NCBI GenBank assembly: GCA_023657425.1
Contig: JAGTJW010000001.1
Coordinates: forward strand, 1,178,001 to 1,242,000
Reading direction: 5' to 3'
DNA from: Ideonella sp. WA131b
GTDB lineage: Bacteria > Pseudomonadota > Gammaproteobacteria > Burkholderiales > Burkholderiaceae_C
Length of the DNA stretch: 64,000 bases
Below are positions 2,872 through 31,613 of the stretch, piece after piece. The position numbers and the translations under genes are program-made. The notes beneath the pieces were generated by a model. The model was not told the DNA's origin. It searched no databases and worked only from the letters and a program-made list of their open reading frames with translations. The number at the start of each line of letters is the position of its first letter. The first letter of the stretch is position 1.

Positions 2872-3318
2872 TCACTTGGCGAACAGCTGGCGGCGGTCGC
2901 GGAGGGCCTTGAACTCCAGCGCGTTGCCGCAGGGATCGCGGAAGAACATCGTGGCCTGCTCGCCCACCTGGCCGGCGAAGCGCACATAGGGCTCGATGAC
3001 GAAGCGCACGCCGCCCGCGCGCAGCCGCGCGGCCAGGGTGTCGAAATCGTCCCAGTCGAGCACGACACCGAAGTGCGGCACCGGCACGTCGTGGCCGTCG
3101 ACCGGGTTGTGGTGGTCGGTCTCGGCCCTGTCGCCGGCTTTGCGCGGGCTCAGGTGGGCCACGATCTGGTGGCCGAAGAAGTCGAAGTCGATCCACTCGC
3201 TGCTGCTGCGGCCCTCGGGACAGCCGAGCAGGCCGCCGTAGAAGGCGCGCGCGGCGGCCAGGTCGTGCACCGGGAAGGCGAGGTGGAAGGGGGCGATGGG
3301 CTTCGGCGCGGTGTTCAT
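2872..3318 (-). CDS. VOC (glyoxalase/bleomycin-resistance) family protein
   Basis: A 148-residue member of the vicinal oxygen chelate superfamily with two paired beta-alpha-beta-beta-beta halves. The N-terminal [21 protein letters not shown] (split here as HLAFPVHD and [11 protein letters not shown]) and the C-terminal [16 protein letters not shown] are typical. Likely metal ligands are His12, the His in [12 protein letters not shown] and Glu near residue 137. Start chosen at the ATG giving [15 protein letters not shown]; the longer frame upstream is low-complexity Arg/Ala sequence. The substrate cannot be told from the sequence. Confidence 0.85.
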
Positions 3319-3362
3319 GCCGCTGAGCATACGCGGCCCCTGGCCCAGAGCCGGCCCCCTGG

Positions 3363-3872
3363 TCAGCGCTTGATCTCGGGCTGGGTGACGCTGGCGTCCA
3401 CCTGCACCAGCCCGAGCGGGTGGCGCACACCGGCGGCGGCGTCTTCGATGCAGCGCAGCACCAGCGGGCTGCGGTGGCGCTCGCGGCAGCCGCGCAGCTC
3501 GTCGAGCGTGAGCCACAGCGTGCGCACGATGCCGTCGTCCAGCGCCCAGCCTTCGATGGCCTCCCCCACGGTGCCGGTGTAGGCGAAGCGCAGGTAGGTC
3601 ACGTCCTCCCCGGTGGCCGGCCGCACGAAGCGCGAGAGGTACACGCCGAGCAGCGCCTCGGGCGTGAAGACGCGGCCGGTCTCCTCCAGCGCCTCGCGCG
3701 CCACGCCTTGCAGCGGGCCCTCGGCGGGGTCGAGGTGGCCGGCGGGGTTGTTGAGCTTCAGGCCCTCGGGCGTGCGCTCCTCCACCAGCAGCCAGCGCCG
3801 CGCGGCGGGCTCGGCCGCACCGTCGTGCGCGATGGCGGCGACGGTGACGCTCGGGCTCCAGCGGGGGTTCAT
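3363..3872 (-). CDS. NUDIX hydrolase, NudJ-like
   Basis: A 169-residue NUDIX pyrophosphohydrolase. The NUDIX box is visible as [18 protein letters not shown] followed by EETG (about residues 50-71), with the REALEETG Mg-binding glutamates intact. The start [14 protein letters not shown] and the tail resemble NudJ, which hydrolyses nucleoside di/triphosphates and thiamin pyrimidine pyrophosphate; that match is from memory of the family. A much longer open frame on this strand through pntA is an artefact of GC-rich antisense sequence. It is divergent from pntA with 135 bases between them. Confidence 0.85.
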
Positions 3873-4007
3873 CGGGGGGCGTTCCGGCCTGCGGGTGGGC
3901 GCGGATGCTAGCGAATGGGTTGCGGCAGGGGCTGCAGGCCCAGGGCGGTGGGGCTGAGGCGCTTGTGTTAGCTTCGATGGCTTGCGCCCAAAAAGAGGAG
4001 AGCGTGC

Positions 4008-5609
4008 ATGGCTTTGCTGATCGGCGTCCCCAAAGAGACCGCGACCGGTGAAAAGCGCGTGGCCACGGTGCCCGAGGTGGTGGAAAAGCTCGTCAAGCTG
4101 GGCTTTGGCGTGGCCGTCGAGAGCGGTGCCGGCGACGCCGCCCACTGCAGCGACGAGGCCTACCGCGCGGCCGGCGCCGAGGTGCTGCCCGACGCCGCCA
4201 CGCTGTGGGCCCGCGCCGACATCGTCTTCAAGGTGCGCGCACCCAGCGCCGACGAGGTGGCGCTCCTGCGCTCCGGCGGCATGCTCATCGGCTTCGTCTG
4301 GCCGGCGCAGAACCCCGAGCTGATGCAGCAGCTGGCGGCCAAGGGCGCCACGGTGCTGGCCATCGACGCGCTGCCGCGCCAGCTGAGCCGGGCGCAGAAG
4401 ATGGACGCGCTCACCTCGCAGGCGGGTGTGAGCGGCTACCGCGCCGTCATCGAGGCGGCCAACGCCTTCGGCCGCTTCTTCAACGGCCAGATCACGGCCG
4501 CGGGCAAGGTGCCGCCGGCCAAGGTGTTCATCGCCGGGGCCGGCGTGGCGGGGCTGGCGGCCATCGGCACGGCGGCCAACCTGGGCGCCATCGTGCGCGC
4601 CAACGACACGCGCGCCGAAGTCGCCGACCAGGTGGTCTCGCTGGGCGGCGAGTTCGTCAAGGTCGACTACGAAGAAGAAGGCTCGGGCGGCGGCGGCTAC
4701 GCCAAGGTCATGAGCGAGGGCTTCCAGGCCGCGCAGCGCGCGATGTACGCGAAGCAGGCGCGCGAGGTCGACATCATCATCACCACGGCGCTGATTCCGG
4801 GCAAGCCGGCTCCGAAGCTCATCACCGCCGAGATGGTGGCCACCATGAAGCCCGGCAGCGTCATCGTCGACATGGCCGCCGAGCAGGGCGGCAACTGCGA
4901 GCTCACCGTGCCGGGCCAGGCGGTGGTGCGCCACGGCGTCACCATCGTCGGCTACACCGATCTCGCCAGCCGCCTGGCCAAGCAGAGCAGCACGCTGTAC
5001 GCCACCAACCTGCTGCGCCTGCTTGAGGAGCTGTGCAAGACGAAGGACGGCACGGTCAACGTCAACTTCGAGGACGACGCCATCCGCGGGCTCACCGTCA
5101 TCAAGGAGGGTGCCGTCACCTGGCCCGCACCGCCGCCCAAGCTGCCCGCGGCGCCGCCCAAGCCCAAGGCCGATGCTGCGGCACCGACTGCGACCAAGGC
5201 GTCCAAGGGCCACGGCCACGGCTCGGTGGAGCCGATGTCGGCCAAGACCCTGGCCATCGTGTTTGCCGTGGGCGCGGTGCTGTTCTGGTTTGTGGGCGCG
5301 TACGCCCCCGCGAGCTTCCTGCAGCACTTCACCGTCTTCGTGCTGGCCTGCTTCGTGGGCTACATGGTGGTGTGGAACGTCACGCCCAGCCTGCACACGC
5401 CGCTGATGAGCGTGACCAACGCCATCAGCTCGATCATCGCCATCGGCGCGCTGGTGCAGGTGGCGCCGCCGCTCGATGCCGCGGGTGCGGCCGACCGGCC
5501 CAACACACTGATCCTGGTGTGTGCAGTCGTGGCGCTGGTGCTCACCGCCATCAACATGTTCGGCGGCTTCGCGGTCACGCGGCGCATGCTGGCCATGTTC
5601 AGGAAATGA
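4008..5609 (+). CDS. pntA: NAD(P) transhydrogenase subunit alpha
   Basis: Alpha subunit of the proton-translocating transhydrogenase, which couples hydride transfer from NADH to NADP+ to the proton gradient. It has 533 residues, close to the E. coli length. The N-terminal AlaDH/PNT domain begins [19 protein letters not shown]. The NAD-binding [18 protein letters not shown] is near residues 176-193, with the mobile loop and the [15 protein letters not shown] region further on. A Pro/Ala/Lys linker at about 373-403 joins a C-terminal membrane domain with about four helices (residues 410-530). The start ATG is preceded by AGAGGAGAG. pntB starts 19 bases downstream. Confidence 0.97.
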
Positions 5610-5628
5610 ATCGAAGGCAGACCCGAAC

Positions 5629-7047
5629 ATGAGCGCAAGCCTCGCCACCGTCGCCTACATCGGCGCGATCATCCTGTTCATCATGAGCCTGGGCGGCCTC
5701 TCGAACCCCGAGACGGCGCGCCGCGGCAACTTCCTCGGCATGGCCGGCATGGCGCTGGCGGTGTTTGCCACCGTGCTGGGGCCGCGCGTCACGGCCGCGG
5801 GCATCCCGTGGATCGTCGGCGCACTCGTCGTCGGTGGGGCCATTGGCCTGGTTGCCGCGAAGAAGGTGCAGATGACGCAGATGCCCGAGCTCGTGGCACT
5901 GATGCACAGCCTGGTGGGCCTGGCGGCCTGCCTGGTGGGCTTTGCGAGCTACGTCGACACCTCCACCGTGTTCCCCACGCCGGTGGAGAAGACCATCCAC
6001 CACGTCGAGATCTACGTCGGCATCCTCATCGGCGCCGTCACCTTCTCGGGCTCGATCATCGCGTTCGGCAAGCTCTCGGGGCGCATCGGCGGCAAGCCGC
6101 TCTTGCTGCCGGGGCGGCACTGGCTCAACCTGGCGGGGCTGCTGGTCGTCATCTACTTCGGCTATGCCTTCCTGCAGGCCGGCGACAACCACAGCGCCGG
6201 CCAGATGGCGCTGCTGGTGATGACGGTCATCGCGCTGGCCTTCGGCGTGCACATGGTGATGGCCATCGGCGGCGCCGACATGCCGGTGGTGGTGAGCATG
6301 CTCAACAGCTACTCGGGCTGGGCCGCGGCGGCCACCGGCTTCATGCTGAGCAACGACCTGCTCATCGTGACGGGCGCACTCGTCGGCAGCTCGGGCGCCA
6401 TCCTCAGCTACATCATGTGCCGCGCGATGAACCGCAACTTCATCAGCGTCATCGCGGGTGGCTTCGGCGGCGGGGCCCCGGCCCCGGCGGCCGGTGGAGC
6501 GGCCGCGCAGCCCGCGGGCGAGGTGGTGCCGGTGAGCGCGGCCGAGACGGCCGAGCTGCTGAAGGAAGCCAAGAGCGTGATCATCGTGCCGGGCTACGGC
6601 ATGGCCGTGGCGCAGGCGCAGCACACGGTGTTCGAGATCACCAAGCTGCTGCGCGACAAGGGCGTGAACATCCGCTTCGGCATCCACCCCGTGGCCGGCC
6701 GCATGCCGGGCCACATGAACGTGCTGCTGGCCGAGGCCAAGGTGCCCTACGACATCGTGCTCGAGATGGACGAGATCAACGAGGACTTCCCCGAGACCGA
6801 CGTCACCATGGTCATCGGCGCCAACGACATCGTGAACCCGGCCGCCCAGGACGACCCCACCAGCCCGATTGCCGGCATGCCGGTGCTCGAGGTGTGGAAG
6901 GCCAAGACCAGCATCGTGATGAAGCGCAGCATGGCCAGCGGCTACGCGGGCGTGGACAACCCGCTCTTCTACAAAGAGAACAACCGCATGCTGTTTGGCG
7001 ATGCGAAGAAGATGCTGGATGAGGTGTTGGGGGCGTTGAGGGCCTGA
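5629..7047 (+). CDS. pntB: NAD(P) transhydrogenase subunit beta
   Basis: Beta subunit, 472 residues. The first ~270 residues are membrane-spanning (about eight or nine helices, beginning [20 protein letters not shown]). The rest is the cytosolic NADP(H)-binding domain III, with the characteristic [14 protein letters not shown] at about 318-331, [19 protein letters not shown] and [12 protein letters not shown]. The start at 5629 gives the usual N-terminus; the frame upstream is only antisense-type sequence overlapping pntA. Forms an operon with pntA. Confidence 0.97.
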
Positions 7048-7067
7048 GACCTCGCCCCCAAACTGGC

Positions 7068-7319
7068 ATGCGCATCACGCTCAACATCGCCGACGACGTG
7101 CTCTCCACCGCCCGCGCGCAGGCGGCGCGCGAGGGGCGCTCGCTGGGCGAGGAGATTTCAGCGCTGGTCCGCGAGTCGCAGCAGCATCAGGCAGGGTCGG
7201 ACGCCAAGCAGGGCGTTCAGAAGACCGGGCCAGGCGGGCGCTTTGCCGTGTTCCCGGCCCGTCGTGAAGTCGTCTCGGTTCGGCGCGTGCGTCGACTGAT
7301 GGACGCAGGCGGCACCTGA
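7068..7319 (+). CDS. VapB-like ribbon-helix-helix antitoxin, no partner toxin
   Basis: An 83-residue protein whose first ~45 residues (MRITLNIADDVLSTARAQAA...) match the ribbon-helix-helix pattern of VapB-type antitoxins. The remaining 35 residues are Arg/Gly-rich and lack family character. No PIN-domain toxin follows; the next gene, 166 bases on, is a Fic protein. This looks like an orphaned antitoxin or the remnant of a vapBC pair. Confidence 0.6.
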   Translation: MRITLNIADDVLSTARAQAAREGRSLGEEISALVRESQQHQAGSDAKQGVQKTGPGGRFAVFPARREVVSVRRVRRLMDAGGT

Positions 7320-7389
7320 TCGTGCCTCCTGCGCGGCCTGCCGGCCGTGCCGCGGAGTCCGTGCGCAGGCGCCCGGCCCGGGCCGAATC

Positions 7390-7426
7390 CTTTCATTGGC
7401 CGCCAACTTGCGGCAATCAATGAAAG
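7390..7426. promoter_or_regulatory. Inverted repeat upstream of fic, probable operator (distal)
   Basis: The arms CTTTCATTG (7390-7398) and CAATGAAAG (7418-7426) are exact inverted repeats. Inside them GCCGC and GCGGC form a second paired arm around CAACTT. The site lies 60-96 bases before the Fic start, in the only intergenic space available for its promoter. Operator function is inferred from position and symmetry. Confidence 0.5.
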
Positions 7427-7436
7427 CCGGCTACCA

Positions 7437-7480
7437 TTTTCTTTAACAAGGGCGCCGGTCATCCGCGCCAGTTAAGGAAA
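7437..7480. promoter_or_regulatory. Second inverted repeat immediately upstream of fic
   Basis: TTTCTTTAAC (7438-7447) and GTTAAGGAAA (7471-7480) are inverted repeats with one mismatch, separated by 23 bases. The right arm includes the AAGGAAA stretch that would serve as ribosome-binding site for the GTG at 7486. The arrangement suggests either an operator overlapping the start region or an mRNA hairpin that can hide the ribosome-binding site. Confidence 0.45.
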
Positions 7481-7485
7481 CTGAC

Positions 7486-8661
7486 GTGGACCACCCCTTC
7501 AGAGCCGGCCGCTACATCCAGCAGAGCACCGGCTACAAGGCCTTCATCCCGGCCCCGCTGCCGCCCGATCAACCGCTGGCCTACGACGGCGAACTGCAGA
7601 CGCTGCTGTCGACCGCCGACCGAGACATCGGCCGCCTCGATGCCCTGGCGGCTTTGCTGCCCAACCCCGACCTCTTCGTGGCCATGTACGTGCGCCACGA
7701 GGCGGTGCTGTCCTCGCAGATCGAGGGCACGCAGAGCACGCTGGAAGACGTGCTCGCCTTCGAAGCCGACGCGCTGCGCGACGACAGCCCGCGCGACGTG
7801 GAAGAGGTCGTCAACTACATCCGCGCCATGAACCACGGCCTGCAGCGCCTGGGCGAACTGCCGCTGTCGCTGCGCCTGCTGCGCGAGATCCACGCTGAGC
7901 TGATGCGCGGCGTGCGCGGCGGCGACAAGTCGCCCGGCGAGTTCCGCGTGTCGCAGAACTGGATCGGCGGCACCGGCAGCACGCTGCGCACCGCCGCCTT
8001 CATCCCGCCGCCGCCGCACGAGCTGATGAATGCCCTCGGCCAGCTTGAACGCTTTCTGCATGAGGCGCGCAACACCGTGCCGCTGCTGGTGCGCTGCGCT
8101 CTGGCGCATGCGCAATTCGAGACCATCCACCCCTTCCTCGACGGCAACGGCCGCGTCGGCCGCCTGCTGATCACGCTGATGCTGTGCGAGGAGGGCGCGC
8201 TGGCCCGGCCCCTGCTGTACCTGTCGCTGTACCTCAAGGCGCGCCGCGCCGAGTACTACGACCGGCTCACCGCCATCCGCGAGCAGGGCCACTGGGAGGC
8301 CTGGGTGGCATTCTTTCTGCGCGGTGTCAGCAGCACCGCGCGCACGGCCACGCAAACGGCACAGGACATCGTCGCGCTGCGCCACGCCCACCAGCAGGCC
8401 GTGGCACGCCAGGCCAAGGCACTGGCGCTCATCGACCACCTGCTGCGCCAGCCCACCGTCAGCATCAAGCGCGTGAGCACCCTGCTCGGCTGCACCGCCC
8501 CCACGGCCACGAAGCTGGTGCGCGAGTTCGAGGAACGCGGCTGGCTGCGCGAGCTCACGGGCTACGGCCGCAATCGCCTGTGGCGCTACCAGCCCTACGT
8601 GGACCTGTTCCACCGCGACGCCCTCGACGCCCTCACGCAACCGGCCGCCGCCCCCACGTGA
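7486..8661 (+). CDS. Fic-family protein (probable AMP-transferase) with built-in inhibitory motif
   Basis: A 391-residue Fic/DOC-fold enzyme that would transfer AMP, or another phosphate-containing group, to a protein hydroxyl. The catalytic motif HPFLDGNGRVGR is at residues 215-226 and is complete. The N-terminal SSQIEGT at 76-82 matches the (S/T)xxxE(G/N) self-inhibitory helix (class II Fic). A C-terminal winged-helix-like segment follows (about 310-375: QPTVSIKRVSTLLGC through TKLVREFEERGWLREL), so it may bind DNA and regulate its own promoter. Start is GTG with AAGGAAA upstream. Two inverted repeats precede it. It opens a defence/addiction island ending near 16.7 kb. Confidence 0.92.
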   Translation: MDHPFRAGRYIQQSTGYKAFIPAPLPPDQPLAYDGELQTLLSTADRDIGRLDALAALLPNPDLFVAMYVRHEAVLSSQIEGTQSTLEDVLAFEADALRDDSPRDVEEVVNYIRAMNHGLQRLGELPLSLRLLREIHAELMRGVRGGDKSPGEFRVSQNWIGGTGSTLRTAAFIPPPPHELMNALGQLERFLHEARNTVPLLVRCALAHAQFETIHPFLDGNGRVGRLLITLMLCEEGALARPLLYLSLYLKARRAEYYDRLTAIREQGHWEAWVAFFLRGVSSTARTATQTAQDIVALRHAHQQAVARQAKALALIDHLLRQPTVSIKRVSTLLGCTAPTATKLVREFEERGWLRELTGYGRNRLWRYQPYVDLFHRDALDALTQPAAAPT

Positions 8662-8699
8662 GCAACGGCCCGCCCGACACCGCTGCATCGTGTACATTC

Positions 8700-8718
8700 G
8701 TTCACCTCAGGGGTGAAC
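8700..8718. promoter_or_regulatory. Palindromic operator upstream of the HigB-like remnant / HTH-ImmA pair
   Basis: GTTCACC (8700-8706) and GGTGAAC (8712-8718) form a perfect 7-base inverted repeat with a 5-base spacer, starting just after TGTACATTC, a possible -10 element. It lies 10 bases before the start chosen for the toxin remnant, where a HigA-type repressor would be expected to bind. Function is inferred. Confidence 0.5.
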
Positions 8719-8727
8719 AAACATGGC

Positions 8728-8955
8728 ATGCTGGTCGAGTTTGTCGATGCCCGGCTGAAGCGGCTCTGTTCAGACCGGGCCGCGCGCCAGCGCCAATGGC
8801 AGAGGGCCGCCGCCGCCAGCCTGGAGGTGCTGCGCAGCCTGCCGGGCAAGTGGGAAGAACCCACCGGCAGTCGCAAGGGCCAGCTCTCGTGCCGGCTCGA
8901 CTGGCGCGCCGTCGACGCCGTCACCGTGCTCGACGTGGAGAACGACCATGACTGA
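8728..8955 (+). pseudogene. HigB-like RelE/ParE toxin, apparently decayed by internal deletions
   Basis: A 75-residue reading frame whose start (MLVEFVDARLKRLCSD) and end (LDWRAVDAVTVLDVENDHD) match the ends of the ~100-residue RelE/ParE-type toxins that precede HTH-ImmA antitoxins. The centre is too short. The family's helix before PGxxxELTGxxxGQ is cut to LEVLRSL, and the strands between RKGQLS and RLDWRA (usually a long RLVF-type stretch carrying catalytic residues) are missing. The terminal DYH is ENDHD. The frame is intact and overlaps the next gene by 8 bases (ATG at 8948). The alignment is from memory, so a short divergent toxin is possible; loss of activity is inferred. Confidence 0.6.
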
Positions 8956-10054
8956 AACCACCCTGGCCTACACGCCGCGCGAGGTGTCGCCCCCGGGCGC
9001 CACGCTGCGCGACCTGATGGAAGAGCGCGACTGGAAGCAGCGCGAACTGGCGCACCGCCTGGGCCGGCCGGTGCAGGCCGTCAACGAGATCCTCGCCGGC
9101 AAGAAGGAAATCACCGAAGACACCGCGCTCGAGCTCGAGCGGGTGCTCGAGGTGCCCGCCCAGTTCTGGCTCGCACGCGAGGCGCGGTACCGCGAGCACC
9201 TGGCGCGCCAGCGCAGCGCCGAGGCCTCGCGCGGGCACGTGCCCTGGCTGGAGCGGTTTCCGCTGAAGGCGCTGCAAGAGGCCGGGGCGCTGCCGCAGGG
9301 CCGCCTGACGGCCGCGTTCAAGCAGGAGCTGGTCGAGCATCTGCTGCGCTTCTTCAACGTGGCCTCGCCCGCCGGCTGGCAGGCCCACTACGACCAGATG
9401 CAGCCGCAGTTCCGCCGCGCCCGCCCCAGCCAGCAGACCGACGTGGCCGCCATCACCGCGTGGCTGCGCATGGGCGAGCTGCAGGCGGCCCGGCTGCACC
9501 TGGCCGACTACGACGCGGCGCGCCTGCAGGCCGCGCTGCCGGCGATGCGCGCCCTGAGCCTGCGGCCGGCCGAAGAGATCGGGCCCGAGCTGGTGCGTCT
9601 GTGTGGACAGGCCGGCGTGGCGCTGGTGTTCGTGCCGCCGCTGCCGGGCACGCATGTGTCGGGCGTGGCGCGTTTCCTGAACGGCCGGCCGCTGATCCAG
9701 CTCTCGCTGCTGGGCAAGAGCAACGATCTGTTCTGGTTCAGCTTCTTCCACGAGGTGGCGCACGTGCTCAGGCACCCCACGCGCGCCATCTTCCTGGACG
9801 ACGCCGCCGCGGGCGACACCGTCGATTCGCCCGAGGAGCAGGACGCCAACCGCTTTGCCGCCGACACGCTGATTCCGCGTGCGCAGCAGGCACGCCTGCC
9901 CTACTTGCCGCTGGTGGCCGAGGAGATCGAGGCCTTTGCGGCCGAGATCGGCCTGCACCCCGGCATCGTGGTGGGCCAGCTGCAGCACCGCGCCCTGCTG
10001 CCCTGGGCGCACGCGCTCACGCGCCTGAAGGCGCGCCACGACATCGCCCGCTGA
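8948..10054 (+). CDS. HigA-like XRE regulator fused to ImmA/IrrE metallopeptidase domain
   Basis: A 368-residue two-domain protein. Residues ~18-75 are a Cro/CI-type helix-turn-helix (LRDLMEERDWKQRELAHRLG, then VQAVNEILAGKKEITEDTA). The C-terminal half is an ImmA/IrrE-type zinc peptidase with HEVAH at about 271-275 (FFHEVAHVL) and a downstream glutamate-containing EEQDANRFAADTLIP that fits the third ligand region. Such fusions serve as antitoxin/repressor of an upstream HigB-like toxin, and the peptidase part can cleave regulators. The start overlaps the toxin remnant by 8 bases. Here the regulator appears intact although the toxin is not. Confidence 0.9.
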   Translation: MTETTLAYTPREVSPPGATLRDLMEERDWKQRELAHRLGRPVQAVNEILAGKKEITEDTALELERVLEVPAQFWLAREARYREHLARQRSAEASRGHVPWLERFPLKALQEAGALPQGRLTAAFKQELVEHLLRFFNVASPAGWQAHYDQMQPQFRRARPSQQTDVAAITAWLRMGELQAARLHLADYDAARLQAALPAMRALSLRPAEEIGPELVRLCGQAGVALVFVPPLPGTHVSGVARFLNGRPLIQLSLLGKSNDLFWFSFFHEVAHVLRHPTRAIFLDDAAAGDTVDSPEEQDANRFAADTLIPRAQQARLPYLPLVAEEIEAFAAEIGLHPGIVVGQLQHRALLPWAHALTRLKARHDIAR

Positions 10055-10083: not shown

Positions 10084-11622
10084 ATGCCCACCCTCGACTG
10101 GCTCCACCGCGAAGCCGCCTTCCGCACCGCGCAGCAGGTGCCCACGCGTGTGCTGCGCCCGCATGCCGCCGGCCACCGCTTCGGTGATGGGGATGCCGCA
10201 CCCGGCAACCTGCTGGTGCAGGGCGACAACCTGCAGGCGCTGAAGGCGCTGGTGCCCTTCTACCGCGGCCAGGTGAAGTGCATCTTCATCGACCCGCCCT
10301 ACAACACCAAGAGCGCCTTCGAGCACTACGACGACAACCTGGAGCACAGCCAGTGGCTGAGCATGATGCTGCCGCGGCTGCAGCTGCTGCGCGAGTTTCT
10401 GCGCGAGGACGGCAGCATCTGGGTGACCATCGACGACCACGAGGGGCATTACCTCAAGGTGTTGATGGATGAGGTGTTTGGGCGGGGGAACTTCATCGGC
10501 GAGTTGGTCTGGCAGAAGCGCACATCGCGCGAGAACCGCGCACCCATAAGTTCCGCGCACGATGCGCTCTTTCTATACGGCAGAAACCCGCCGAACGTTT
10601 GGAAGGCGCACCGAAACCTGCTGGCTGCGAATGAAGCCGGGCTCTCCAATCCTGACCACGATCCTCGCGGTCCTTGGAAGTCCGTACCTTTCACGGCTCA
10701 AGGGTATCGAGAGAACCAGATGTACAAGATCCGGACGCCGACCGGGCTACAACTTGATCCGCCTAAAGGTCGCTGCTGGGGTGCTACGGAGCCCGAGTAC
10801 TTGAAGCTTCGGGACATTGAGAGGCGTGTGTACTTTCCAAAGCAAGGGCGTGGTAGGCCACGAATCAAGCAGTTCCCTGAGCAGCAGAAGGGTCTGGTTC
10901 CAATGACGCTCTGGTTTGCCAAGGAGGTGGGAGACAACGAGGACGCAAAAAAGGAAAGCCTTGAGCTGTTTCCCGATCGAGAGGCCTTTGGAACGCCGAA
11001 GCCGGAAGGGCTCCTACAGAGAATCGTTCACATCGCCACCAACCCCGGCGACCTCATCCTCGACTCCTTCCTCGGCTCCGGCACCACCGCCGCCGTCGCC
11101 CACAAGATGGGCCGCCGCTGGATCGGCATCGAGATGGGCGAGCACGCCGTCACCCACTGCCTGCCGCGCCTGCAGAAGGTGGTGCAGGGCGAACAAGGCG
11201 GCATCAGCCAGGCCGTGAACTGGCAGGGCGGCGGCGGCTTCCGCTTCGTGCAGCTGGGCGCGCCGCTGTTCGATGAACACGGCGAGCTGCACCCCGAGGT
11301 GCGCTTTGCCGACCTGGCCGCCTTTTTGTGGCTGCGCGAAACCGGCACCGCCTACGAGCCGGCCGCCAGCCCCGTGCAGGGCACGCCGCTCTTGGGCGTG
11401 CACGAGGGCCGCGCCGTCTACCTGCTCTACAACGGCATCCTCGGCGACAAGCGCCCCGCCGCCGGCAACGTGCTCACCAGCGCGGTGCTGGCCGCCATGC
11501 AGGCCCGCTGCTGGCACGAAGGCCCCAAGGTCGTCTACGGCGAGGCCTGCCTGCTGGGCGATGCGCGGCTGCACAGTGCCGGCATCAGCTTCCGCCAGCT
11601 GCCGCATGCGGTGCCGCGCTAA
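10084..11622 (+). CDS. mod: Type III-like DNA N6-adenine methyltransferase (Mod), copy 1
   Basis: A 512-residue beta-class adenine methyltransferase that would modify the recognition site and carry its specificity. The catalytic DPPY is at residues 70-73 (FIDPPYNTKSAFEHYDDNLEHS in two parts: FIDPPYNTKS, AFEHYDDNLEHS). The SAM-binding DSFLGSGTTAAVA lies near 323-335, giving motif order IV then I. Between ~135 and ~315 is the target-recognition region, and its codons are clearly less GC-rich than the flanks. The start gives MPTLDWLHREAAF, matching the paralogue at 24135. A toxin-antitoxin pair and then res follow. The region just before the variable part is identical in DNA to copy 2 for 90 bases. 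Confidence 0.93.
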   Translation: MPTLDWLHREAAFRTAQQVPTRVLRPHAAGHRFGDGDAAPGNLLVQGDNLQALKALVPFYRGQVKCIFIDPPYNTKSAFEHYDDNLEHSQWLSMMLPRLQLLREFLREDGSIWVTIDDHEGHYLKVLMDEVFGRGNFIGELVWQKRTSRENRAPISSAHDALFLYGRNPPNVWKAHRNLLAANEAGLSNPDHDPRGPWKSVPFTAQGYRENQMYKIRTPTGLQLDPPKGRCWGATEPEYLKLRDIERRVYFPKQGRGRPRIKQFPEQQKGLVPMTLWFAKEVGDNEDAKKESLELFPDREAFGTPKPEGLLQRIVHIATNPGDLILDSFLGSGTTAAVAHKMGRRWIGIEMGEHAVTHCLPRLQKVVQGEQGGISQAVNWQGGGGFRFVQLGAPLFDEHGELHPEVRFADLAAFLWLRETGTAYEPAASPVQGTPLLGVHEGRAVYLLYNGILGDKRPAAGNVLTSAVLAAMQARCWHEGPKVVYGEACLLGDARLHSAGISFRQLPHAVPR

Positions 11623-11673: not shown

Positions 11674-11895
11674 ATGACCACTGTCGACGCCATCGTGGCC
11701 CAAGCCGAGGCCCTGCCCCCCGAAGAGTTCGAGCTGCTGGTGCTGCGGTTGACGGACTGCCTTCACCACTTCGCGAGCCCCGAAGTCGAGGCGGCCTGGC
11801 ATGCCGAGATCGACCGGCGCGTGGCCGCCGATGACCGCGGCGAGACGACGTATGTGCCTTGGGAACAGGTTCGCCAGGAGCTGGGCCTGAAGTGA
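11674..11895 (+). CDS. Antitoxin of the PF09720 (addiction module component) family
   Basis: A 73-residue acidic protein with the typical layout of the small 'putative addiction module component' antitoxins: helix AIVAQAEALPPEEFELLVLRL, then EVEAAWHAEIDRR, and a C-terminal VPWEQVRQELGLK. The ATG follows GGAGACGGCC. Its TGA overlaps the GTG of the ParE-like toxin. The pair sits between mod and res of the first restriction-modification locus, which is an unusual place for a complete addiction module. Confidence 0.85.
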   Translation: MTTVDAIVAQAEALPPEEFELLVLRLTDCLHHFASPEVEAAWHAEIDRRVAADDRGETTYVPWEQVRQELGLK

Positions 11896-12185
11896 TTCGT
11901 GTCGTCTTCGAAGTCGCCGCGCAGGCCGATGTACGGGCTGCGATGGCCCACTGCAGCGCCGTGTCGACGGAGTTGGCGACACGCTTCGCCACGGACCTCG
12001 ACGACGCCGTAGGCCGCATCCAGCAGTTGCCCGAAGCCTGGCCCCCGGCTGGCGCTGGTTTGCGTCGGTGCCTTCTTCGCCACTTCCCCTATTCGGTGGT
12101 CTACCGCACGGCCTTCGACCCCTTGCGCGTGTTGGCCGTGATGCACCACCGCCAAAGTGCAGCCCGCTGGCAGGGCCGGCTTTGA
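11892..12185 (+). CDS. ParE/RelE-family toxin
   Basis: A 97-residue RelE/ParE-fold toxin recognised by its C-terminal half: LRRCLLRHFPYSVVYRTAFDP in two parts (LRRCLLRHFPY, SVVYRTAFDP), then LRVLAVMHHRQSAARWQGRL, the usual strand-strand-helix end. The GTG start overlaps the antitoxin stop by three bases (GTGA), so translation is probably coupled. It ends five bases before the res start, so toxin, antitoxin and restriction genes are likely on one transcript. Confidence 0.85.
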   Translation: MIRVVFEVAAQADVRAAMAHCSAVSTELATRFATDLDDAVGRIQQLPEAWPPAGAGLRRCLLRHFPYSVVYRTAFDPLRVLAVMHHRQSAARWQGRL

Positions 12186-19495: not shown

Positions 19496-20794
19496 TCAGC
19501 GCGGCGTGGCGGCCGCTTCCTTGCCGAAGTCGCGCGGCATGCGCGCCCAGGCGGCGGCCACGAATCCCGGCAGCGTGGCGATGCAGCACCACACGAAGAA
19601 GGCCGTGTAGCCCAGCTGCTCCTGCAGCCAGCCGGCGGCCATGCCCGGCAGCATCATCCCCAGCGCCATGAAACCGGTGCACAGCGCGTAGTGCGCCGTC
19701 TTGTGCGGGTTGCCGCCCCCGGCGCCATCGCCTGGCCCGCCGGCCACCCACAGCATGAACACCATGTAGGCCGTGAAGCCGAAGCCGTAGCCGAACTGCT
19801 CCACCGCCAGCGCCGCCGCCACCACCAGCAGGCCCTCGGGCTGCGCCCAGGCCAGCCCCACGTACAGCAGGTTGGGCGCGTTCATGGCCAGCAGCAGCAC
19901 GGGCAGCAGCCGGCCCAGGCCGGCGCGCGAGATGGCCCAGCCGCCGAGCAGCCCGCCTAAAGTGAGCGCGGCCACGCCCACGGTGCCGTAGGCCAGGCCG
20001 AGCTGCTGCGTCGTGAAGCCCAGGCCGCCGTCGGCGCGGGCGTCCAGCAGGAAAGGCGCCACCAGCTTGAGCAGCTGCGCCTCGCCCAGCCGGTACACGA
20101 GCAGGAAGACCAGCACGCGCACGATGTCCTCGCGCGCAAAGAAGCTGCGGAACACGGCGACGAAGCCGCGCCAGAACTCGCCCGTGCGCGGCGCCGGCCT
20201 GTCGTCGGCCGGCCGCGGCAGCGCCCAGGCATGCCAGGCCGCGAAGGCCGCAAAGAGAACGGCCAGCAGCAGGAACACCGCCTGCCAGCCGGCCACCGGC
20301 CCGCCGTGGTGCTCGGCCCACCAGCCGGCCAGCCACACCAGCCCGCCCTGGCCGCCCAGCATCGACAGCCGGTAGAAGGTGCTGCGCACGCCCACGAAGG
20401 CGGCCTGGCGGCGGCCGTCCAGCGCCAGGATGTAGAAGCCGTCGGCCGCGATGTCGTGCGTGGCGCTGGCAAAGGCCAGCAGCCAGAACATCACCAGCGT
20501 CCACTGCAGGAAAGCCGGCGCCGGCACGGCCAGCGCCACCCCGGCAAAGGCGGCGCCCACCCCCAGCTGAAGCCCCACGATCCACAGGCGCTTCTTGCCC
20601 AGCAGCTCCACCAGCGGGCTCCACAGCGGCTTGATCACCCAAGGCAGGTACAGCCAGCTCGTCAGCAGCGCGATCTGCGCGTTGGACACGCCGAGGTTCT
20701 TGTACATCACCACGGCCAGCGTCATCACGGCCACGTAGGGCAGGCCCTGGCCGAGGTAGAGCGTGGGGATCCAGCGCCAGGGCGAAGCCGACAT
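19496..20794 (-). CDS. MFS transporter, AmpG-like
   Basis: A 432-residue twelve-helix transporter of the AmpG (muropeptide permease)/SLC33-like branch. Signature parts are LYLGQGLPYVAVMTLAVVMY near the N-terminus, YLPWVIKPLWSPLVELLG, and FASATHDIAADGFYI near residue 115. AmpG imports anhydro-muropeptides for cell-wall recycling; several paralogues in this branch have other substrates, so the role is a family-based guess. Convergent with rsmE (39 bases apart) and divergent from the TonB receptor. Confidence 0.85.
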   Translation of the reverse strand: MSASPWRWIPTLYLGQGLPYVAVMTLAVVMYKNLGVSNAQIALLTSWLYLPWVIKPLWSPLVELLGKKRLWIVGLQLGVGAAFAGVALAVPAPAFLQWTLVMFWLLAFASATHDIAADGFYILALDGRRQAAFVGVRSTFYRLSMLGGQGGLVWLAGWWAEHHGGPVAGWQAVFLLLAVLFAAFAAWHAWALPRPADDRPAPRTGEFWRGFVAVFRSFFAREDIVRVLVFLLVYRLGEAQLLKLVAPFLLDARADGGLGFTTQQLGLAYGTVGVAALTLGGLLGGWAISRAGLGRLLPVLLLAMNAPNLLYVGLAWAQPEGLLVVAAALAVEQFGYGFGFTAYMVFMLWVAGGPGDGAGGGNPHKTAHYALCTGFMALGMMLPGMAAGWLQEQLGYTAFFVWCCIATLPGFVAAAWARMPRDFGKEAAATPR

Positions 20795-20982
20795 GCGGGC
20801 GATGTTCCCACGGCGGCGGCGCAGCCCTGGCTTGCGCAGGGAATGTGGTTCGCGGGTCGACGCCGGGGGCTAATCCGGATGGGCGACGGCCCCGGTGCAT
20901 GGCGACACTGGTCGATGAGTCTGCCGGCGACGCCCAGCCTGCCCGCATCCCCACCAGAAACCACGGTCCCGAGGAACCCCCC

Positions 20983-23841: not shown

Positions 23842-23896
23842 GCCCCCAAGCTCGCTGGCGCTCCACGCACGGCCAGAGGCCGCGCCGTTTGGGCCG

Positions 23897-23922
23897 TCCA
23901 AGCCGGCGCAGGCCGGCTTGGA
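23897..23922. terminator. Strong hairpin after the TonB-receptor gene, possible terminator
   Basis: TCCAAGCCGGC (23897-23907) and GCCGGCTTGGA (23912-23922) form an 11-base perfect stem with a 4-base loop, 56 bases after the stop. No run of T follows, so it is either a non-canonical terminator or a genomic repeat. The surrounding 290 bases are extremely GC-rich and hold no gene that I recognise. Confidence 0.45.
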
Positions 23923-24134
23923 GCCGCGGCCTTCACCCCCCCGGGGCGGCCGCCCTGCGGCGGACCGGCAGAGCCGGCTCCGCGCAGGGGGCTTGGCGGC
24001 CGGCGGCTGGCTGACGCCAGCGCCAGCCTGGGCCGGGCCACCGCAGCCGCGCTGGCCTAACCCGCCAGCGGTGCGCGCTGGCGGCCGGCGTGGACCCAGG
24101 GCCGCTGCAGCCGCCCAGCCCCGACAATGCCGGC

Positions 24135-25679
24135 ATGCCCACCCTGAACTGGCTCCAGCGCGACGCCGCCTTCCGCGCCGCCGAGGCCGTGCCCTACCGG
24201 CTGCTGCAGCCCATCAGCACCCACGGCGACGGCGACGCCCGCAACTGGCTTGTGCACGGCGACAACCTGCAGGCGCTGAAGGCCCTGCTGCCCCTGTTCC
24301 GCGGCCAGGTGAAGTGCATCTTCATTGACCCGCCCTACAACACCAAGAGCGCGTTCGAGCACTACGACGACAACCTCGAGCACTCGCAATGGCTGTCAAT
24401 GATGCTGCCGCGGCTGCAGCTGCTGCGCGAGTTCCTGCGCGAGGACGGCAGCATCTGGGTGACCATCGACGACCACGAGGGGCATTACCTCAAGGTGTTG
24501 ATGGATGAGGTGTTTGGGCGGGGGCGTTTCGTTGCGAATTGCGTTTGGCAGAAGCGGTACTCACGTGAGAACCGGGAGTCCATCGGCGACGTTCACGATC
24601 ATCTGCTTGTTTACGCCGTGAACGCGAGCTTGTTCAAGGAAACACGCAGTCTGTTGCCGCTTGCGGAAAAGCAGCTAGAGCTCTATCGGAATCCTGATTC
24701 GGATCCTCGTGGAAAGTGGCAGAGCGTGTCGCTGCTGGCGCAAGGCTTTCGACCGAATCAGATGTACGAGATCACCGCGCCATCGGGCCGTACTCATCTG
24801 CCGCCACCTGGCAACTGCTGGAAGCTTGTCCGCTCGGAGTTCGACAGACTTCTTGCCGATCACCGGGTGTACTTTGGTGCGGACGGAAACGGGGTTCCCA
24901 GACGCAAAGAGTTCCTGGTGAACGCCAAAGGACTCGTGCCTTGGACTTGGTGGCCACACGAGGAAGTCGGCCACACCGACGAGTCCAAGAAGGAAGCCAA
25001 TGCACTGTTTGGCGCAGACATCAGCTTCGGTACACCCAAGCCCGAACGTTTGCTCCAACGCATCCTGCACATCGCCACCAACCCCGGCGATCTCGTCCTC
25101 GACTCCTTCCTCGGCAGCGGCACCACCGCCGCCGTGGCGCACAAGATGGGCCGGCGCTGGATCGGCATCGAGATGGGCGAACACGCGCGCACCCACTGTC
25201 TGCCGCGGCTGCAGAAAGTGGTGCAGGGCGAACAAGGCGGCATCAGCCCCGCCGTGGGCTGGCAGGGCGGTGGCGGCTTTCGCCTCGTGCACCTGGGCGA
25301 GCCGGTGTTCACGGCCGACGGCCGCATCGACCCCGCGGTGCGCTTCGCGGCACTGGCCGCCTTCGTGTGGCAGCAGGCCACGCGCACGGCCTACACGCCG
25401 CCCGAGCTGGGTGGCCAGAGCGGCGCCCGCGCCGGCACGCCGCAGCTCGGCACGCACGAGGGCACAGCCGTGCTGCTGCTCTACAACGGCATCCTCGGCG
25501 ACCGCCGGCCCGAAGGCGGCAATGTGCTCAACCTGGCCGTGCTGCAGGCGCTCAAGCGCAGCTGCCCGCACGACGGCCCGCGCCTGGTGTACGGCGAAGC
25601 CTGCACCCTGGGCCCGGCGCGGCTGGCGGCCGAGGGCATCGAGTTCCGGCAGATTCCGTACGAGCTGGCGGCACGATGA
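24135..25679 (+). CDS. mod: Type III-like DNA N6-adenine methyltransferase (Mod), copy 2
   Basis: A 514-residue beta-class adenine methyltransferase, paralogous to the one at 10084. DPPY is at residues 65-68; DSFLGSGTTAAVA is near 322. Residues 1-130 and ~310-514 align closely with copy 1, while ~130-305 (from FVANCVWQKRYSREN onward) differ strongly and use lower-GC codons, as expected of an exchanged target-recognition domain. The start gives MPTLNWLQRDAAF. The stop overlaps the next gene (ATGA). With the AlbA-domain gene and res downstream it forms a second mod-X-res locus of presumably different specificity. Confidence 0.93.
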   Translation: MPTLNWLQRDAAFRAAEAVPYRLLQPISTHGDGDARNWLVHGDNLQALKALLPLFRGQVKCIFIDPPYNTKSAFEHYDDNLEHSQWLSMMLPRLQLLREFLREDGSIWVTIDDHEGHYLKVLMDEVFGRGRFVANCVWQKRYSRENRESIGDVHDHLLVYAVNASLFKETRSLLPLAEKQLELYRNPDSDPRGKWQSVSLLAQGFRPNQMYEITAPSGRTHLPPPGNCWKLVRSEFDRLLADHRVYFGADGNGVPRRKEFLVNAKGLVPWTWWPHEEVGHTDESKKEANALFGADISFGTPKPERLLQRILHIATNPGDLVLDSFLGSGTTAAVAHKMGRRWIGIEMGEHARTHCLPRLQKVVQGEQGGISPAVGWQGGGGFRLVHLGEPVFTADGRIDPAVRFAALAAFVWQQATRTAYTPPELGGQSGARAGTPQLGTHEGTAVLLLYNGILGDRRPEGGNVLNLAVLQALKRSCPHDGPRLVYGEACTLGPARLAAEGIEFRQIPYELAAR

Positions 25680-27562: not shown

Positions 27563-30370
27563 ATGCCGTCCCTCACCCTCAAGACCTACCAGCAGCAGGC
27601 CCTGGCCAGCCTGGAGCGCTTTCTCGCCGACGCGCGCACCACGGGCGACCTCGACGCCGCCTGGGCGCGCGAACTGGCCCGCCAGGCCCCGGCGCCCGAG
27701 CCCGGCGAGCGCGTGCGCACCGTGCCCTACCGCCGCGAGGCCTTCGGCGACACGCCCTGCGTGTGCCTGCGCATCCCCACCGGCGGCGGCAAGACGCTGA
27801 TGGCCAGCCACGCCATCGTGCAGATGGCACGCGTGTGGCGGCAGGCTGCCCACCCGGTGGCGCTGTGGCTGGTGCCGTCCACGACCATCCGCGACCAGAC
27901 CTTGCGCGCGCTGCAGCAAAGCGGCCACCCCTACCGCGAGGCGCTGCAGGCGCACTACGGCCAGGCCCTGGCCGTGCTCGACCTGGAAGCCGCGCCCACG
28001 CTGGCGGTGCAGGAGCTGGGCACCAAGGCCGTGGTGCTGGTGGCCACGATCCAGAGCTTTCGCGTCAAGAACACGCAGGGCCGCAACGTCTACGCGTTCA
28101 GCGAGGAGTTCGACACCCACTTCGCGCACTTCGCGGCGCAGGGGCTGCTGGGCCCGGATGCACCGCTGGAGCGCGTGAGCGCCGAAGACCTGGTGCCCGG
28201 CGCCGCCAGCGGCGCCCTGACGGCGGCGGACATCGGCCGCGTCAAGCATTCGCTGGCCAACCTGCTGGCGCTGGTGCGCCCGTTGGTGGTGGTGGACGAG
28301 GCGCACAACGCGCAGAGCAGGACCAGCCTCGACACGCTGCGGCGCGTGGCACCCAGCGCCGTGCTGGAGCTGACGGCCACGCCGGTGCCCAAGAAGGCCA
28401 ACGTGCTGGCGAGCGTGAGCGCGCGCGAGCTGCAGGCCGAAGAGATGATCAAGCTGCCGGTGATGCTGGCCGAGCACCGCGAGTGGCCGGCTGCCGTGCG
28501 CGACGCGCTGCTGCGCCGCCGCCAGCTGGAGGCCGAGTGCGCGCACGAGCCGCAGTACATCCGGCCCATCGTGCTGTTCCAGGCGCAGGACAAGTCGGCC
28601 GAGGTCACGCCCGAGCTGCTGCGCCGGCACCTCATCGACGACCTGCACGTGCCCGAGGCACACATCGTGGTGGCCACCGGCGATCAGCGCGGCCTCGATG
28701 GCGTGGATCTGTTCGACCCGGCGTGCCCGGTGCGCTGCGTCATCACGGTGGAGGCCCTGAAGGAGGGCTGGGACTGCGCCTTCGCCTACGTGCTGTGCTC
28801 GCTGCAGAACGTGCGCTCGGGCAAAGACGTGGAGCAGCTGCTGGGCCGCGTGCTGCGCATGCCCTACGCGCGGCGGCGGCGCAGCCCCGCGCTGAACCGG
28901 GCCTACGCACACGTGGTGGCACGCAGCTTTTCCGAAGCCGCGGCGGCCCTGGTGGACCGCATGGTCGACGGCATGGGCTTCGAGGCGCTGGACGCCGCAG
29001 CCGTGCTGCTGCCCGATGCCGGCGTGCAAGGCGAGCTGCTCGACGTCACGCCGCAACCCGCCCTTGCGGCGCCGGTGCTGACGCTGGAAGTGAGCGCCGA
29101 GGTGGCCCGGGCGCTGCAGGCCGAGCCCGACATCGAGGTGCACTGGCCGGTCTCCGCGGCCGAGGGCGGCGATGCAGGCGATGCCGGCACTGGCGCAGAT
29201 TCGCCGCCCTCGGCCGGCCCGCGGCTGCGCCTGCAAGACGAGGTGTCCGACGCCACGCTGGCCCGCCTGCTGGCGGTGCTGCCGGCCAAGGACCATGCCC
29301 CGGTGATGGCCCATGTGGCGCAGCACAACCAGCGTGTGCAGGCGGCCCGCGCGCCGGCCGAGCGCGGCGTGCCCTTTGCCGCGATGCGGCGGCTGTGCGT
29401 GGGCTTGCGTGCGGCGGCTGGCGAGCAGCAGGAGCTGCATTTGTTCGAGCGCCAGACGCTGGACGAGATCGTTGGCTTCGACCTCCTGCGCGCCGACCCC
29501 ATGCCCGATCTGCCGGGCTTTGCCGTGGTGGAGCAAAGCGAGCTGTTCGAGATCTACGTCAACCAGGCGCGGGTGGAGTTCCGCAAGGCGCAAGACGAGC
29601 GGCAGCTCTCGCTGGACGCGGTGCCCACGAGCGAGACCGACACCGATCTGGCCTGGTGGCTGGCCCGCAGCTTGCGCCGCGACAGCCTGACCGACGAGAC
29701 CCTGCGCCGCTGGTGCGTGGCGCTGCTGGGGCGGCTTCAGCGGGAGCGCGGCTTCAGCCTGACGGGGCTGGTGCGGGCGCGTCACCAGGTGGCCGGGCAA
29801 GCCATGGCGCGGCTTGAGGACTTGCTGGCGACGGCGCGGCAACGCGGCTTCCGGCAGCTGCTGCTGCCCGACAGCGGGGCTGCGCAGACCGACTGGACGG
29901 CCGGCACCAGCGCCGACTTCACTTTTGCCTTCAGGCCCGGCCAGTACCCGGCGCGGCATGTCTACACCGGGCGCTGGCGCTTTACCAAGCACTACTACCC
30001 GTTCATCCATGCGCTCAAGAGCCAGGGCGAGGAGTTCGAGTGTGCGCGGGCGCTCGACGGCCAGCCCGAGGTGAAGCACTGGGTGCGCAACGTCGAGCAG
30101 CAGGAGCGCTTTTCGTTCTGGCTGCCCACGGCCACCGACTACTTCTACCCCGACTTCGTGGCCGAGCTGAAGGATGGCCGGGTGCTGGTGGTGGAGTACA
30201 AGGGCGATGCCTATGCCAGCAACGACGACTCCGCCGAAAAGCGCGCCGTGGGCCTGGCTTGGCAGCGCGCCAGCGCGGGCCTGGGCTTGTTCGTGATGGT
30301 GGAGAAGCGGCTGGCCGGCATGGACATGACGGCCCAGTTGCGGCAGGCCATCGTCGGAGGGCGCACGTGA
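27563..30370 (+). CDS. res: Type III-like restriction endonuclease subunit (Res), copy 2
   Basis: A 935-residue SF2 helicase-nuclease paralogous to copy 1. PTGGGKTLMASHAIV is near 71-85, VVDEAHNAQ near 244, ELTATPVPKKAN near 270, EQLLGRVLRMPYA near 424, and the nuclease signature FYPDF...VVEYKG near 860-880. Equal length and collinear motifs show that the two res genes share a recent ancestor, but they are clearly divergent in sequence. It should act with the Mod of copy 2. It ends GTGA, overlapping the start of the following serine hydrolase. Confidence 0.92.
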   Translation: MPSLTLKTYQQQALASLERFLADARTTGDLDAAWARELARQAPAPEPGERVRTVPYRREAFGDTPCVCLRIPTGGGKTLMASHAIVQMARVWRQAAHPVALWLVPSTTIRDQTLRALQQSGHPYREALQAHYGQALAVLDLEAAPTLAVQELGTKAVVLVATIQSFRVKNTQGRNVYAFSEEFDTHFAHFAAQGLLGPDAPLERVSAEDLVPGAASGALTAADIGRVKHSLANLLALVRPLVVVDEAHNAQSRTSLDTLRRVAPSAVLELTATPVPKKANVLASVSARELQAEEMIKLPVMLAEHREWPAAVRDALLRRRQLEAECAHEPQYIRPIVLFQAQDKSAEVTPELLRRHLIDDLHVPEAHIVVATGDQRGLDGVDLFDPACPVRCVITVEALKEGWDCAFAYVLCSLQNVRSGKDVEQLLGRVLRMPYARRRRSPALNRAYAHVVARSFSEAAAALVDRMVDGMGFEALDAAAVLLPDAGVQGELLDVTPQPALAAPVLTLEVSAEVARALQAEPDIEVHWPVSAAEGGDAGDAGTGADSPPSAGPRLRLQDEVSDATLARLLAVLPAKDHAPVMAHVAQHNQRVQAARAPAERGVPFAAMRRLCVGLRAAAGEQQELHLFERQTLDEIVGFDLLRADPMPDLPGFAVVEQSELFEIYVNQARVEFRKAQDERQLSLDAVPTSETDTDLAWWLARSLRRDSLTDETLRRWCVALLGRLQRERGFSLTGLVRARHQVAGQAMARLEDLLATARQRGFRQLLLPDSGAAQTDWTAGTSADFTFAFRPGQYPARHVYTGRWRFTKHYYPFIHALKSQGEEFECARALDGQPEVKHWVRNVEQQERFSFWLPTATDYFYPDFVAELKDGRVLVVEYKGDAYASNDDSAEKRAVGLAWQRASAGLGLFVMVEKRLAGMDMTAQLRQAIVGGRT

Positions 30371-31482: not shown

Positions 31483-31613
31483 AGCGGCGCCCCTGCACAC
31501 ATCCCGCGCCGCGGTGCACGCGCTGATGCAGACCCTGCCCTGAAGCGGCGCCCCTGCACACATCCCGCGCCGCGGTGCACGCGCTGATGCAGTCCCTGCC
31601 ATGATGCGGCTGC
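31446..31613. repeat. 61-bp tandem repeat, 2.7 copies, covering the 3' end of the serine hydrolase gene
   Basis: The unit begins CGCCGCGGTGCACGCGCTGA and recurs at 31446, 31507 and 31568 with a period of 61. Copies 1 and 2 are nearly identical; the third is partial and has two changes (CAGTCCCTGCCATGATG). Copy 1 encodes the last residues and stop of the hydrolase, so the duplications repeat the gene end into the spacer before ldcA. Confidence 0.9.

Follow-up and report, generated by a model that had tools for sequence, protein, structure and literature searches.

We analysed a stretch of 64,000 nucleotides from Ideonella sp. WA131b (the window) and found in it two Type III restriction-modification systems, which share one orientation and lie about 14 kb apart. 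It is very probable that their methyltransferases, Mod1 and Mod2, are mosaic paralogues, whose central target-recognition domains (TRDs) were replaced in place as cassettes by recombination in the flanking edges, without a mutual swap between the two genes. The sequence-only reading of this DNA had proposed recombination at a shared edge that exchanges TRDs. Replacement of the TRD is upheld by the breaks between genes, by the locus of a close relative (L053), by a pair of Thauera loci and by the loss of locus signal at the edges; a mutual exchange between Mod1 and Mod2 is not.

In the mechanism that we propose, Mod1 and Mod2 would be paralogous Type III methyltransferases at two separate loci, each with the same neighbours in relatives, and each would combine conserved catalytic ends with a recognition cassette, some 180 codons long, in the centre. 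Homologous or near-homologous recombination would substitute one cassette for another at the same position, the crossovers falling in both conserved edges, as the comparisons below show. Donors may have been Mods of this family that reside at other loci, on plasmids, in phages or in other species. In Type III systems Mod is the sole specificity subunit, so that a change in Mod alters the targets of both methylation and restriction. Hence, each replacement should shift both targets at once, and one recombination event could change the restriction and the methylation target while the system is kept.

The two systems and the edges of the recognition domain

Both Mods show the order DPPY, central domain, FLGSGT; in beta-class methyltransferases DPPY is followed by the TRD and then by FxGxG. 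A pattern search found helicase motifs and a PD-ExK nuclease motif in both Res subunits, and the motifs of Res are listed in the available part of PMC3311624. The best PADLOC match of all four subunits was MTase_III for the Mods or REase_III for the Res proteins. Judged by their sequences, both systems appear to be intact Type III restriction-modification systems (Table 1).

Table 1. Features of the two Type III systems, with positions in the window
Feature	Position	Strand	Basis
Mod1, Type III DNA adenine methyltransferase, 512 aa, locus 1	10084..11622	+	PF01555; PADLOC MTase_III PDLC03644, E 2e-174
Mod2, paralogue of Mod1, 514 aa, 67% identical, locus 2	24135..25679	+	domain and PADLOC MTase_III match; alignment to Mod1
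Res1, Type III restriction subunit	12068 (listed start)..14998	+	TGGGKT, DEAH, PD..ExK by pattern; REase_III
Res2, Type III restriction subunit	27563..30370	+	TGGGKT, DEAH, PD..ExK by pattern; REase_III
N-terminal catalytic end of Mod1, conserved, DPPY motif	10189..10488	+	91% identical to 24225-24524
90-base identical block, left cassette edge, Mod1	10399..10488	+	exact match to Mod2 copy
90-base identical block, left cassette edge, Mod2	24435..24524	+	exact match to Mod1 copy
TRD (exchangeable recognition cassette) of Mod1, codons 136-315 by fit, GC3 ~0.65	10489..11028	+	identity bins, GC3, likelihood fit
TRD (exchangeable recognition cassette) of Mod2, GC3 ~0.66	24525..25067	+	identity bins, GC3, likelihood fit, L053 comparison
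C-terminal end of Mod1, conserved, FLGSGT motif; right cassette edge at its start	11029..11622	+	identity bins, fit
C-terminal end of Mod2, conserved	25068..25679	+	identity bins, fit
ParE-toxin-like ORF between Mod1 and Res1; 3' end overlaps listed Res1 start	11859..12185	+	PF05016, E 5e-6
Schlafen/AlbA_2 + HATPase_c_4 gene between Mod2 and Res2	25680 (approximate start)..27241	+	PF04326, PF13749 in ORF 24716-27241

The gene between mod and res differs by system, a ParE-like toxin in the first and an AlbA_2/HATPase_c_4 protein in the second. Upstream of Mod1 lie a Fic-domain gene (7486-8661) and an HTH/M78-peptidase gene (8948-10054), and of the Limnohabitans Mod loci, L044 has a match to the Fic gene and L043 to the HTH/M78 gene. 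Downstream of Res2, at 31445-31610, a 61-bp unit is repeated 2.7 times with 97% matches; the alignment to L053 breaks at this repeat and the copy number may differ. Each of the two Mods has one TRD. At a score of 40, with which very short tracts could escape, no tandem repeat was found inside Mod1 or Mod2 or just before either. Lacking such a tract, phase-variable mod genes (a phasevarion) were rejected as a candidate for Mod1 and Mod2.

The sequence-only reading had reported a block shared by both Mods, and all 90 of its 90 bases indeed agree. It is the longest exact match between the two genes, followed by one of 35 bases. As a discrete patch, however, the block does not stand, being only the tail of the conserved end of about 300 bp (Table 1). 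Neither is the run exceptional by itself: with 80 of the 95 codons from 41 to 135 identical, 30 or more of them would stand in a row with P = 0.065. The same 90 bases occur in three other genomes, at 99% identity in L053 and L031 and at 98% in L035 (over the bases present). The block is the junction of an unexchanged end and the cassette.

The claim that the genes become unrelated where the block ends is right as to the sharp drop in identity at 10489, but the centres are homologous, with 49-50% amino-acid and 56% nucleotide identity. Successive bins of 20 codons from 10384 match at 59/60, 51/60, 40/60 and 31/57 nucleotides. In a three-segment likelihood fit, low identity begins with codon 136 (base 10489) and high identity resumes with codon 316 (base 11029; 25068 in Mod2), in agreement with the right border given earlier (11030/25070). 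Breakpoints in the DNA comparison of the two genes are thus sharp, and the gradual divergence that would have spoken against exchange was not seen. The centres are also less GC-rich, as had been noticed (GC of 0.572 and 0.573 versus 0.66 in the N-terminal and 0.72-0.73 in the C-terminal ends).

Synonymous agreement between Mod1 and Mod2 changes at the same edges. Where both genes encode the same amino acid, the fraction of identical codons is 0.893 in codons 41-135 and 0.808 in codons 318-410, versus 0.745 and 0.713 expected by independence, while in the TRD it is 0.447 versus 0.425 expected, which means that synonymous sites are saturated. Codons 1-40 are likewise saturated (0.60 versus 0.647 expected, over 20 codons) and Res1 and Res2 are near saturation (0.716 versus 0.635). 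The high agreement in the ends and the saturation in the TRD indicate that the sharp edges reflect different ages and not constraint alone.

An AlphaFold model of Mod2 (mean pLDDT 86) has the EcoP15I Mod (PDB 4zcf) as its best structural match (Foldseek E 3e-29); among solved chains, 6k0w is nearest in sequence, followed by EcoP15I 4zcf. On this model the exchanged segment, Mod2 residues ~131-311, extends from just past helix 116-127 into helix 304-314, ending before strand 320-323, which leads into FLGSGT. With these limits, the exchanged part takes in almost everything that lies between the catalytic halves.

The breaks fall at similar places in other genes. In 219 of 224 gene pairs with similar ends the centre is less than 0.68 identical, and the 5 pairs at or above this value are omitted from the following counts. 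The pairs have genes in common and were chosen because their ends are alike, and the counts show where breaks fall rather than how many independent events there were. Left breaks lie mostly at codons 132-141 (164 pairs) or 144-149 (49 pairs), right breaks at codons 310-325 (150 pairs) or 300-307 (62 pairs).

We assigned Mods to the two loci by their flanking genes, or by Res in the case of L015, which lies on a short contig. This gave six Mods for locus 1 (Mod1, L041, L054, L048, L014, L015) and five for locus 2 (Mod2, L053, L046, L012, L018). The locus signal, which is the identity within loci minus that between loci, was ranked among 462 relabellings. It is strong at codons 21-40 (+0.262, 1 of 462 as high) and 41-60 (+0.062, 1). 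On the C-terminal side a strong signal spans codons 356-505 overall, for example +0.111 (1) at 381-410, +0.154 (2) at 411-440 and +0.088 (1) at 441-470. The signal is smaller at codons 61-120 (+0.025 to +0.040, 12-17 of 462), absent at 121-135 (-0.003, 292) and weak to the right of the TRD, at 318-335 (+0.009, 82) and 336-355 (+0.008, 43); in the TRD it amounts to +0.010 to +0.027 (49-114). Codons 1-20 are also without signal (+0.007, 133), so that its loss is not peculiar to the edges. The lost or weak signal in the edges suggests that crossovers tend to fall there, probably within about 15-30 codons to the left and up to about 38 codons to the right of the TRD.

Codons atypical of the host are over-represented at codons 121-135 and 316-330 (for example, GGG at 121 and 133; CTC at 324, 326 and 330), and GGG, CTC, CGG and TTT recur at fixed positions of both cassette edges in many genomes of the Mod family. 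Synonymous sharing between divergent genes, for which 19 of the 94 Mods had no usable Res, is +0.04 to +0.06 at the left edge, +0.03 to +0.11 at the right edge and -0.03 to +0.18 in other parts of the ends. No special DNA signal at the edges is claimed, as the two measures disagree: the codon excess is present, but synonymous sharing is no higher than elsewhere in the ends.

Could Mod1 and Mod2 have swapped their TRDs with each other at the 90-base block? The perfect identity of the block, the absence of locus signal in the adjoining 15 codons and the possibility that two direct copies of the block could pair would fit such an event. However, their TRDs share no more than half of their residues and are saturated at synonymous sites, the block is nearly as well preserved in L053 and L031, and each TRD has closer relatives elsewhere. 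The TRDs nearest to that of Mod1 are those of L041 (0.78), L042 (0.77) and L045 (0.67), and those nearest to that of Mod2 belong to L075, L068, L070 and L057 (0.74-0.75), from Chlorobiaceae, Sulfuritalea and Sphingopyxis. The two Mods thus carry different TRD lineages; we regard a swap between them as very unlikely and largely refuted. Mod1 and L041/L042 share a TRD type, which indicates that a cassette can persist in place for long.

Replacement and reassortment in relatives

L053, the uncultured beta proteobacterium ErkenSummer bin-1601, has a Mod that is identical, over the stretch compared, to that of a genome from the same genus as the window. It is collinear with the window from 19513 to 31491 and onward to 34013 at about 91% identity, with breaks at 31491-31567 (the tandem repeat) and 32594-32924. 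Along Mod2, bins of 60 bases show an identity of 0.95-0.98 in the N-terminal end, 0.85-0.87 at about 24480-24600, 0.45-0.62 at 24600-24960 (the low bins start at 24600 to 24900), 0.73-0.78 up to 25080 and 0.85-1.0 further on. Upstream dips at 23820-23940 and 24060-24120 fall mostly between the end of a TonB-receptor ORF (23841) and Mod2.

The Thauera loci L073 and L104 are 95-97% identical in three blastn stretches, and about 1.7 kb of L073 (12859-14590) has no counterpart in L104. In the 2.8 kb aligned around Mod, the bins that flank the TRD are 0.92-1.0 identical; identity is 0.82 at the left TRD border, and within the TRD itself (L073 8421-8960) it drops to 0.33-0.70. The TRD is not the sole difference at these loci, because of the dips and breaks in L053 and the unmatched 1.7 kb in L073. 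Nevertheless, conserved ends with a sharp break to a different centre were found at the same locus in relatives, and the expectation that the same ends would occur with other centres in related strains is confirmed by L053, the Thauera pair and the pairwise break fits.

These loci also bear on the view that whole systems were acquired independently and that the common ends reflect nothing but functional conservation. This view would fit the general mobility of restriction-modification systems and the low identity of Res1 to Res2 (46%). Yet L053 and the Thauera pair are collinear and alike in the flanks, the Mod ends and the downstream region, and within Mod it is the TRD alone that was replaced. 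We hold independent acquisition to be the least likely of the alternatives weighed here, although acquisition of whole systems may have been the first origin of the two loci.

How far TRDs have been replaced within the family was seen in two sets of relatives, many of which are metagenome bins. Set 1 comprised 94 distinct Mods, including the two of the window, from 80 named relatives and from earlier loci; 18 of 119 matching ORFs were omitted as too short and 5 Mods as duplicates. Over all pairs, TRD identity and end identity are correlated at 0.07, a value which the ranking of this set by similarity to Mod1 could have weakened and to which the second set, gathered by the N-terminal end only, is an answer in part. 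The median TRD identity is 0.40 for 350 pairs with ends above 0.85 and 0.42 for 819 pairs with ends of 0.70-0.75, and it reaches at least 0.62 in just 13 of the 350. At about 62% identity the TRDs form 42 clusters, 18 of them with at least two members and several spanning classes and phyla.

Trees were made from 91 Mods (3 of the 94 were left out). On the tree of the ends, recurrent TRD labels (69 of 91 Mods) need 53 changes, and shuffled labels need 54.0 on average, with 69 of 200 shuffles as low. Host class, in contrast, needs 19 changes on this tree versus 35.6 when shuffled (0/200 as low); on the TRD tree it is also non-random (30 versus 35.3 changes, 0/200). The histories of TRDs and ends are therefore discordant. 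In this Type III family, sampled over many genomes, the ends follow host class and the specificity domain has been reassorted almost freely, even across phyla.

For set 2, the N-terminal end matched in 27 of 369 genomes drawn from the class, 24 of 398 from the phylum and 38 of 399 from the family. The 81 loci yielded 79 Mods including the two of the window, with 4 dropped for short coverage, and overlap with set 1. Among the 34 Mods closest to Mod1 (Mod1 and Mod2 included), the correlation is 0.775 between N-terminal and C-terminal ends, 0.09 between N-terminal end and TRD and 0.17 between C-terminal end and TRD; 41 more distant Mods are more tightly coupled (0.86 for the two ends, 0.54 for N-terminal end and TRD), and these correlations, like the pair counts above, rest on gene pairs that are not independent.

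An explanation without recombination would have diversifying selection drive rapid change in the TRD, while the catalytic ends on both sides evolve slowly. It agrees with the ends carrying catalytic motifs conserved in the compared relatives and with the centre being the specificity domain. However, TRD types recur across classes and phyla and lie at random on the end tree, loci that are about 91-97% alike break sharply at the TRD, and the GC content at third codon positions (GC3) steps at the same edges whatever the amino-acid conservation. Fast evolution is extremely unlikely to account for the data, and it is refuted by TRD types that are common to distant ends.

Replacement by recombination leaves the question of donors. 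In 1885 cross-class pairs we found no near-identical TRD in clearly different ends: the closest TRDs, those of L086 (a betaproteobacterium) and L077 (Holophagae), are 0.88 identical with ends of 0.82, and TRDs are more alike than ends in 6 of the pairs only. The sole pair with a TRD identity above 0.9, L068 and L075, has equally similar ends. Single events would thus be old, or their donors lie outside the sampled genomes. The lack of a near-identical donor bears on recency and not on exchange as such. Among 72,556 plasmid records, 83 contain a relative of the N-terminal end, 5 of them at 80% identity or more; among 50,697 phage records there are 121 that contain one, all below 80%.

Some further loci are of note. 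L068 and L075 (Chlorobiaceae) present a weak reverse case, in which codons 171-235 are 0.99 identical in nucleotides and the rest 0.94 (log-likelihood gain 8). L202 (G309:C10:268000-280000) has two open tandem Mods (3232-4794 and 4891-6423) followed by a single Res (6416-9109); the first 75 codons of these Mods are 93-96% alike in nucleotides and their recognition domains differ. It is possible that L202 is a dual-specificity system or a source of cassettes. Two relatives of the first system are decayed, L203 (G026:C155) with a frameshifted Mod and Res, and L204 (G023:C11) with a truncated Mod beside an inverted Res fragment.

Low GC of the recognition domain

In 94/94 Mods of set 1 and in 72/75 of the N-end-only set, which overlaps set 1, the TRD has a lower GC3 than the ends; in the N-end-only set, fourfold sites (V, P, T, A and G) also give 72/75. 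In a merged and realigned set, after removal of 12 overlapping rows and with 6 of 159 left out, the count is 151/153. The mean GC3 profile is 0.70-0.75 over codons 1-40, 0.75-0.83 over 41-120 and 0.70 at 121-130; it falls to 0.45-0.56 over codons 131-310, reaches 0.63 at 311-320 and 0.72-0.81 further on. For 75 Mods with a Res, mean GC3 is 0.749 in Res, 0.781 in the ends and 0.498 in the TRD, which lies below Res in 74 of them. The step is alike in three conservation classes (ends 0.72, 0.74 and 0.775; TRD 0.50, 0.495 and 0.51) and hence independent of conservation. Near the exchange edges, GC3 drops by about 0.25 within one gene and host.

The lower GC of the centres had been listed among the traces that an exchange of TRDs would leave. 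Since the deficit is near-universal in this domain, it is not evidence of import, and we discard this argument. In 105 hosts with an end GC3 of at least 0.7 the mean TRD offset is -0.30; in AT-rich hosts (end GC3 below 0.45) the TRD is still lower in 18/20, with a mean of -0.09. A deficit was likewise seen in Type I systems of the window's taxonomic family, where GC3 of HsdS is below that of the adjacent HsdM in all 14 loci in which both were found; in the other 16 of the 30 loci surveyed, the search pattern did not find HsdM.

Candidate causes are an AT-rich donor pool, escape from a GC-favouring force, or selection at the codon level. When TRD GC3 is regressed on end GC3, the line crosses the diagonal at 0.11 in one set and at 0.15 in another, and a pool of lower GC, as the full cause, would need a GC3 of about 0.11-0.15. 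Moreover, GC3 follows the host within TRD lineages, with a slope of 0.57-0.66 and r of 0.73-0.82 over three clustering thresholds (0.65 and 0.82 in the main one). Simple mixing is therefore improbable as the full cause of the deficit unless the donor pool is extremely AT-rich. On the other hand, 19-46% of the residual GC3 variation lies between TRD lineages, which counts against an offset set purely by the host.

We tentatively raise the possibility, which we consider rather doubtful at present, that an AT offset is inherent in target-recognition modules and keeps no record of the donor. Cassettes without an allelic pairing partner would escape a GC-favouring force (biased gene conversion or selection), and the same force would act on the freely recombining ends. 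If so, the inference from low GC to recent foreign origin would fail for specificity domains, and the three-part gene would be a natural test of the GC-favouring force. A GC deficit of recognition modules is to be expected in nearly any host. A literature search with partial coverage found no description of a general AT offset of recognition domains, and the near-universal offset was less expected than the movement of TRDs.

Relation to known systems

The closest parallel is modA of Neisseria and Haemophilus. In the available part of the account by Gawthorne 2012 (PMC3311624), the 5' and 3' regions of modA genes are conserved and the variable domain in the middle was acquired as a whole by recombination in the flanks, and the modA12 domain, with a GC of 28% versus 40%, is taken as evidence of transfer. 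So far as that text goes, Mod1 and Mod2 resemble modA as Type III mods with conserved ends and an exchanged central domain of lower GC, but modA is phase-variable, whereas our genes show no repeat tract and form two paralogous loci. The reading of low GC also differs, being a sign of transfer there and a near-universal property of the domain here; by itself, low GC of a specificity domain is unfit as evidence of import, the use made of it for modA12. In the accessible part of PMC5198162, small GC deficits of whole systems in Streptococcus suis are read as possible recent acquisition.

Movement of TRDs between non-orthologous Type III genes of Helicobacter pylori has been described by Furuta and Kobayashi 2012, as cited in the available text of PMC3983042; as far as this citation tells, our study differs in following one Mod family across classes and phyla and in quantifying its assortment. 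In Type I S genes, according to the part of Furuta 2011 (PMC3077401) at hand, TRDs are moved by recombination in the shared sequence beside them, between genes at different loci as well (DoMo). The Mods are like DoMo, so described, in that TRDs move via recombination at flanking shared sequence, and unlike it in that DoMo proper concerns two positions in one gene, while the Mods have a single TRD position. EcoP15I Mod (4zcf) is structurally similar to Mod2 but only about 20% identical, and the target sequence cannot be inferred from it. Overall, the exchange of recognition domains in Type III systems is already established, and Mod1 and Mod2 are a new and well-resolved instance of it.
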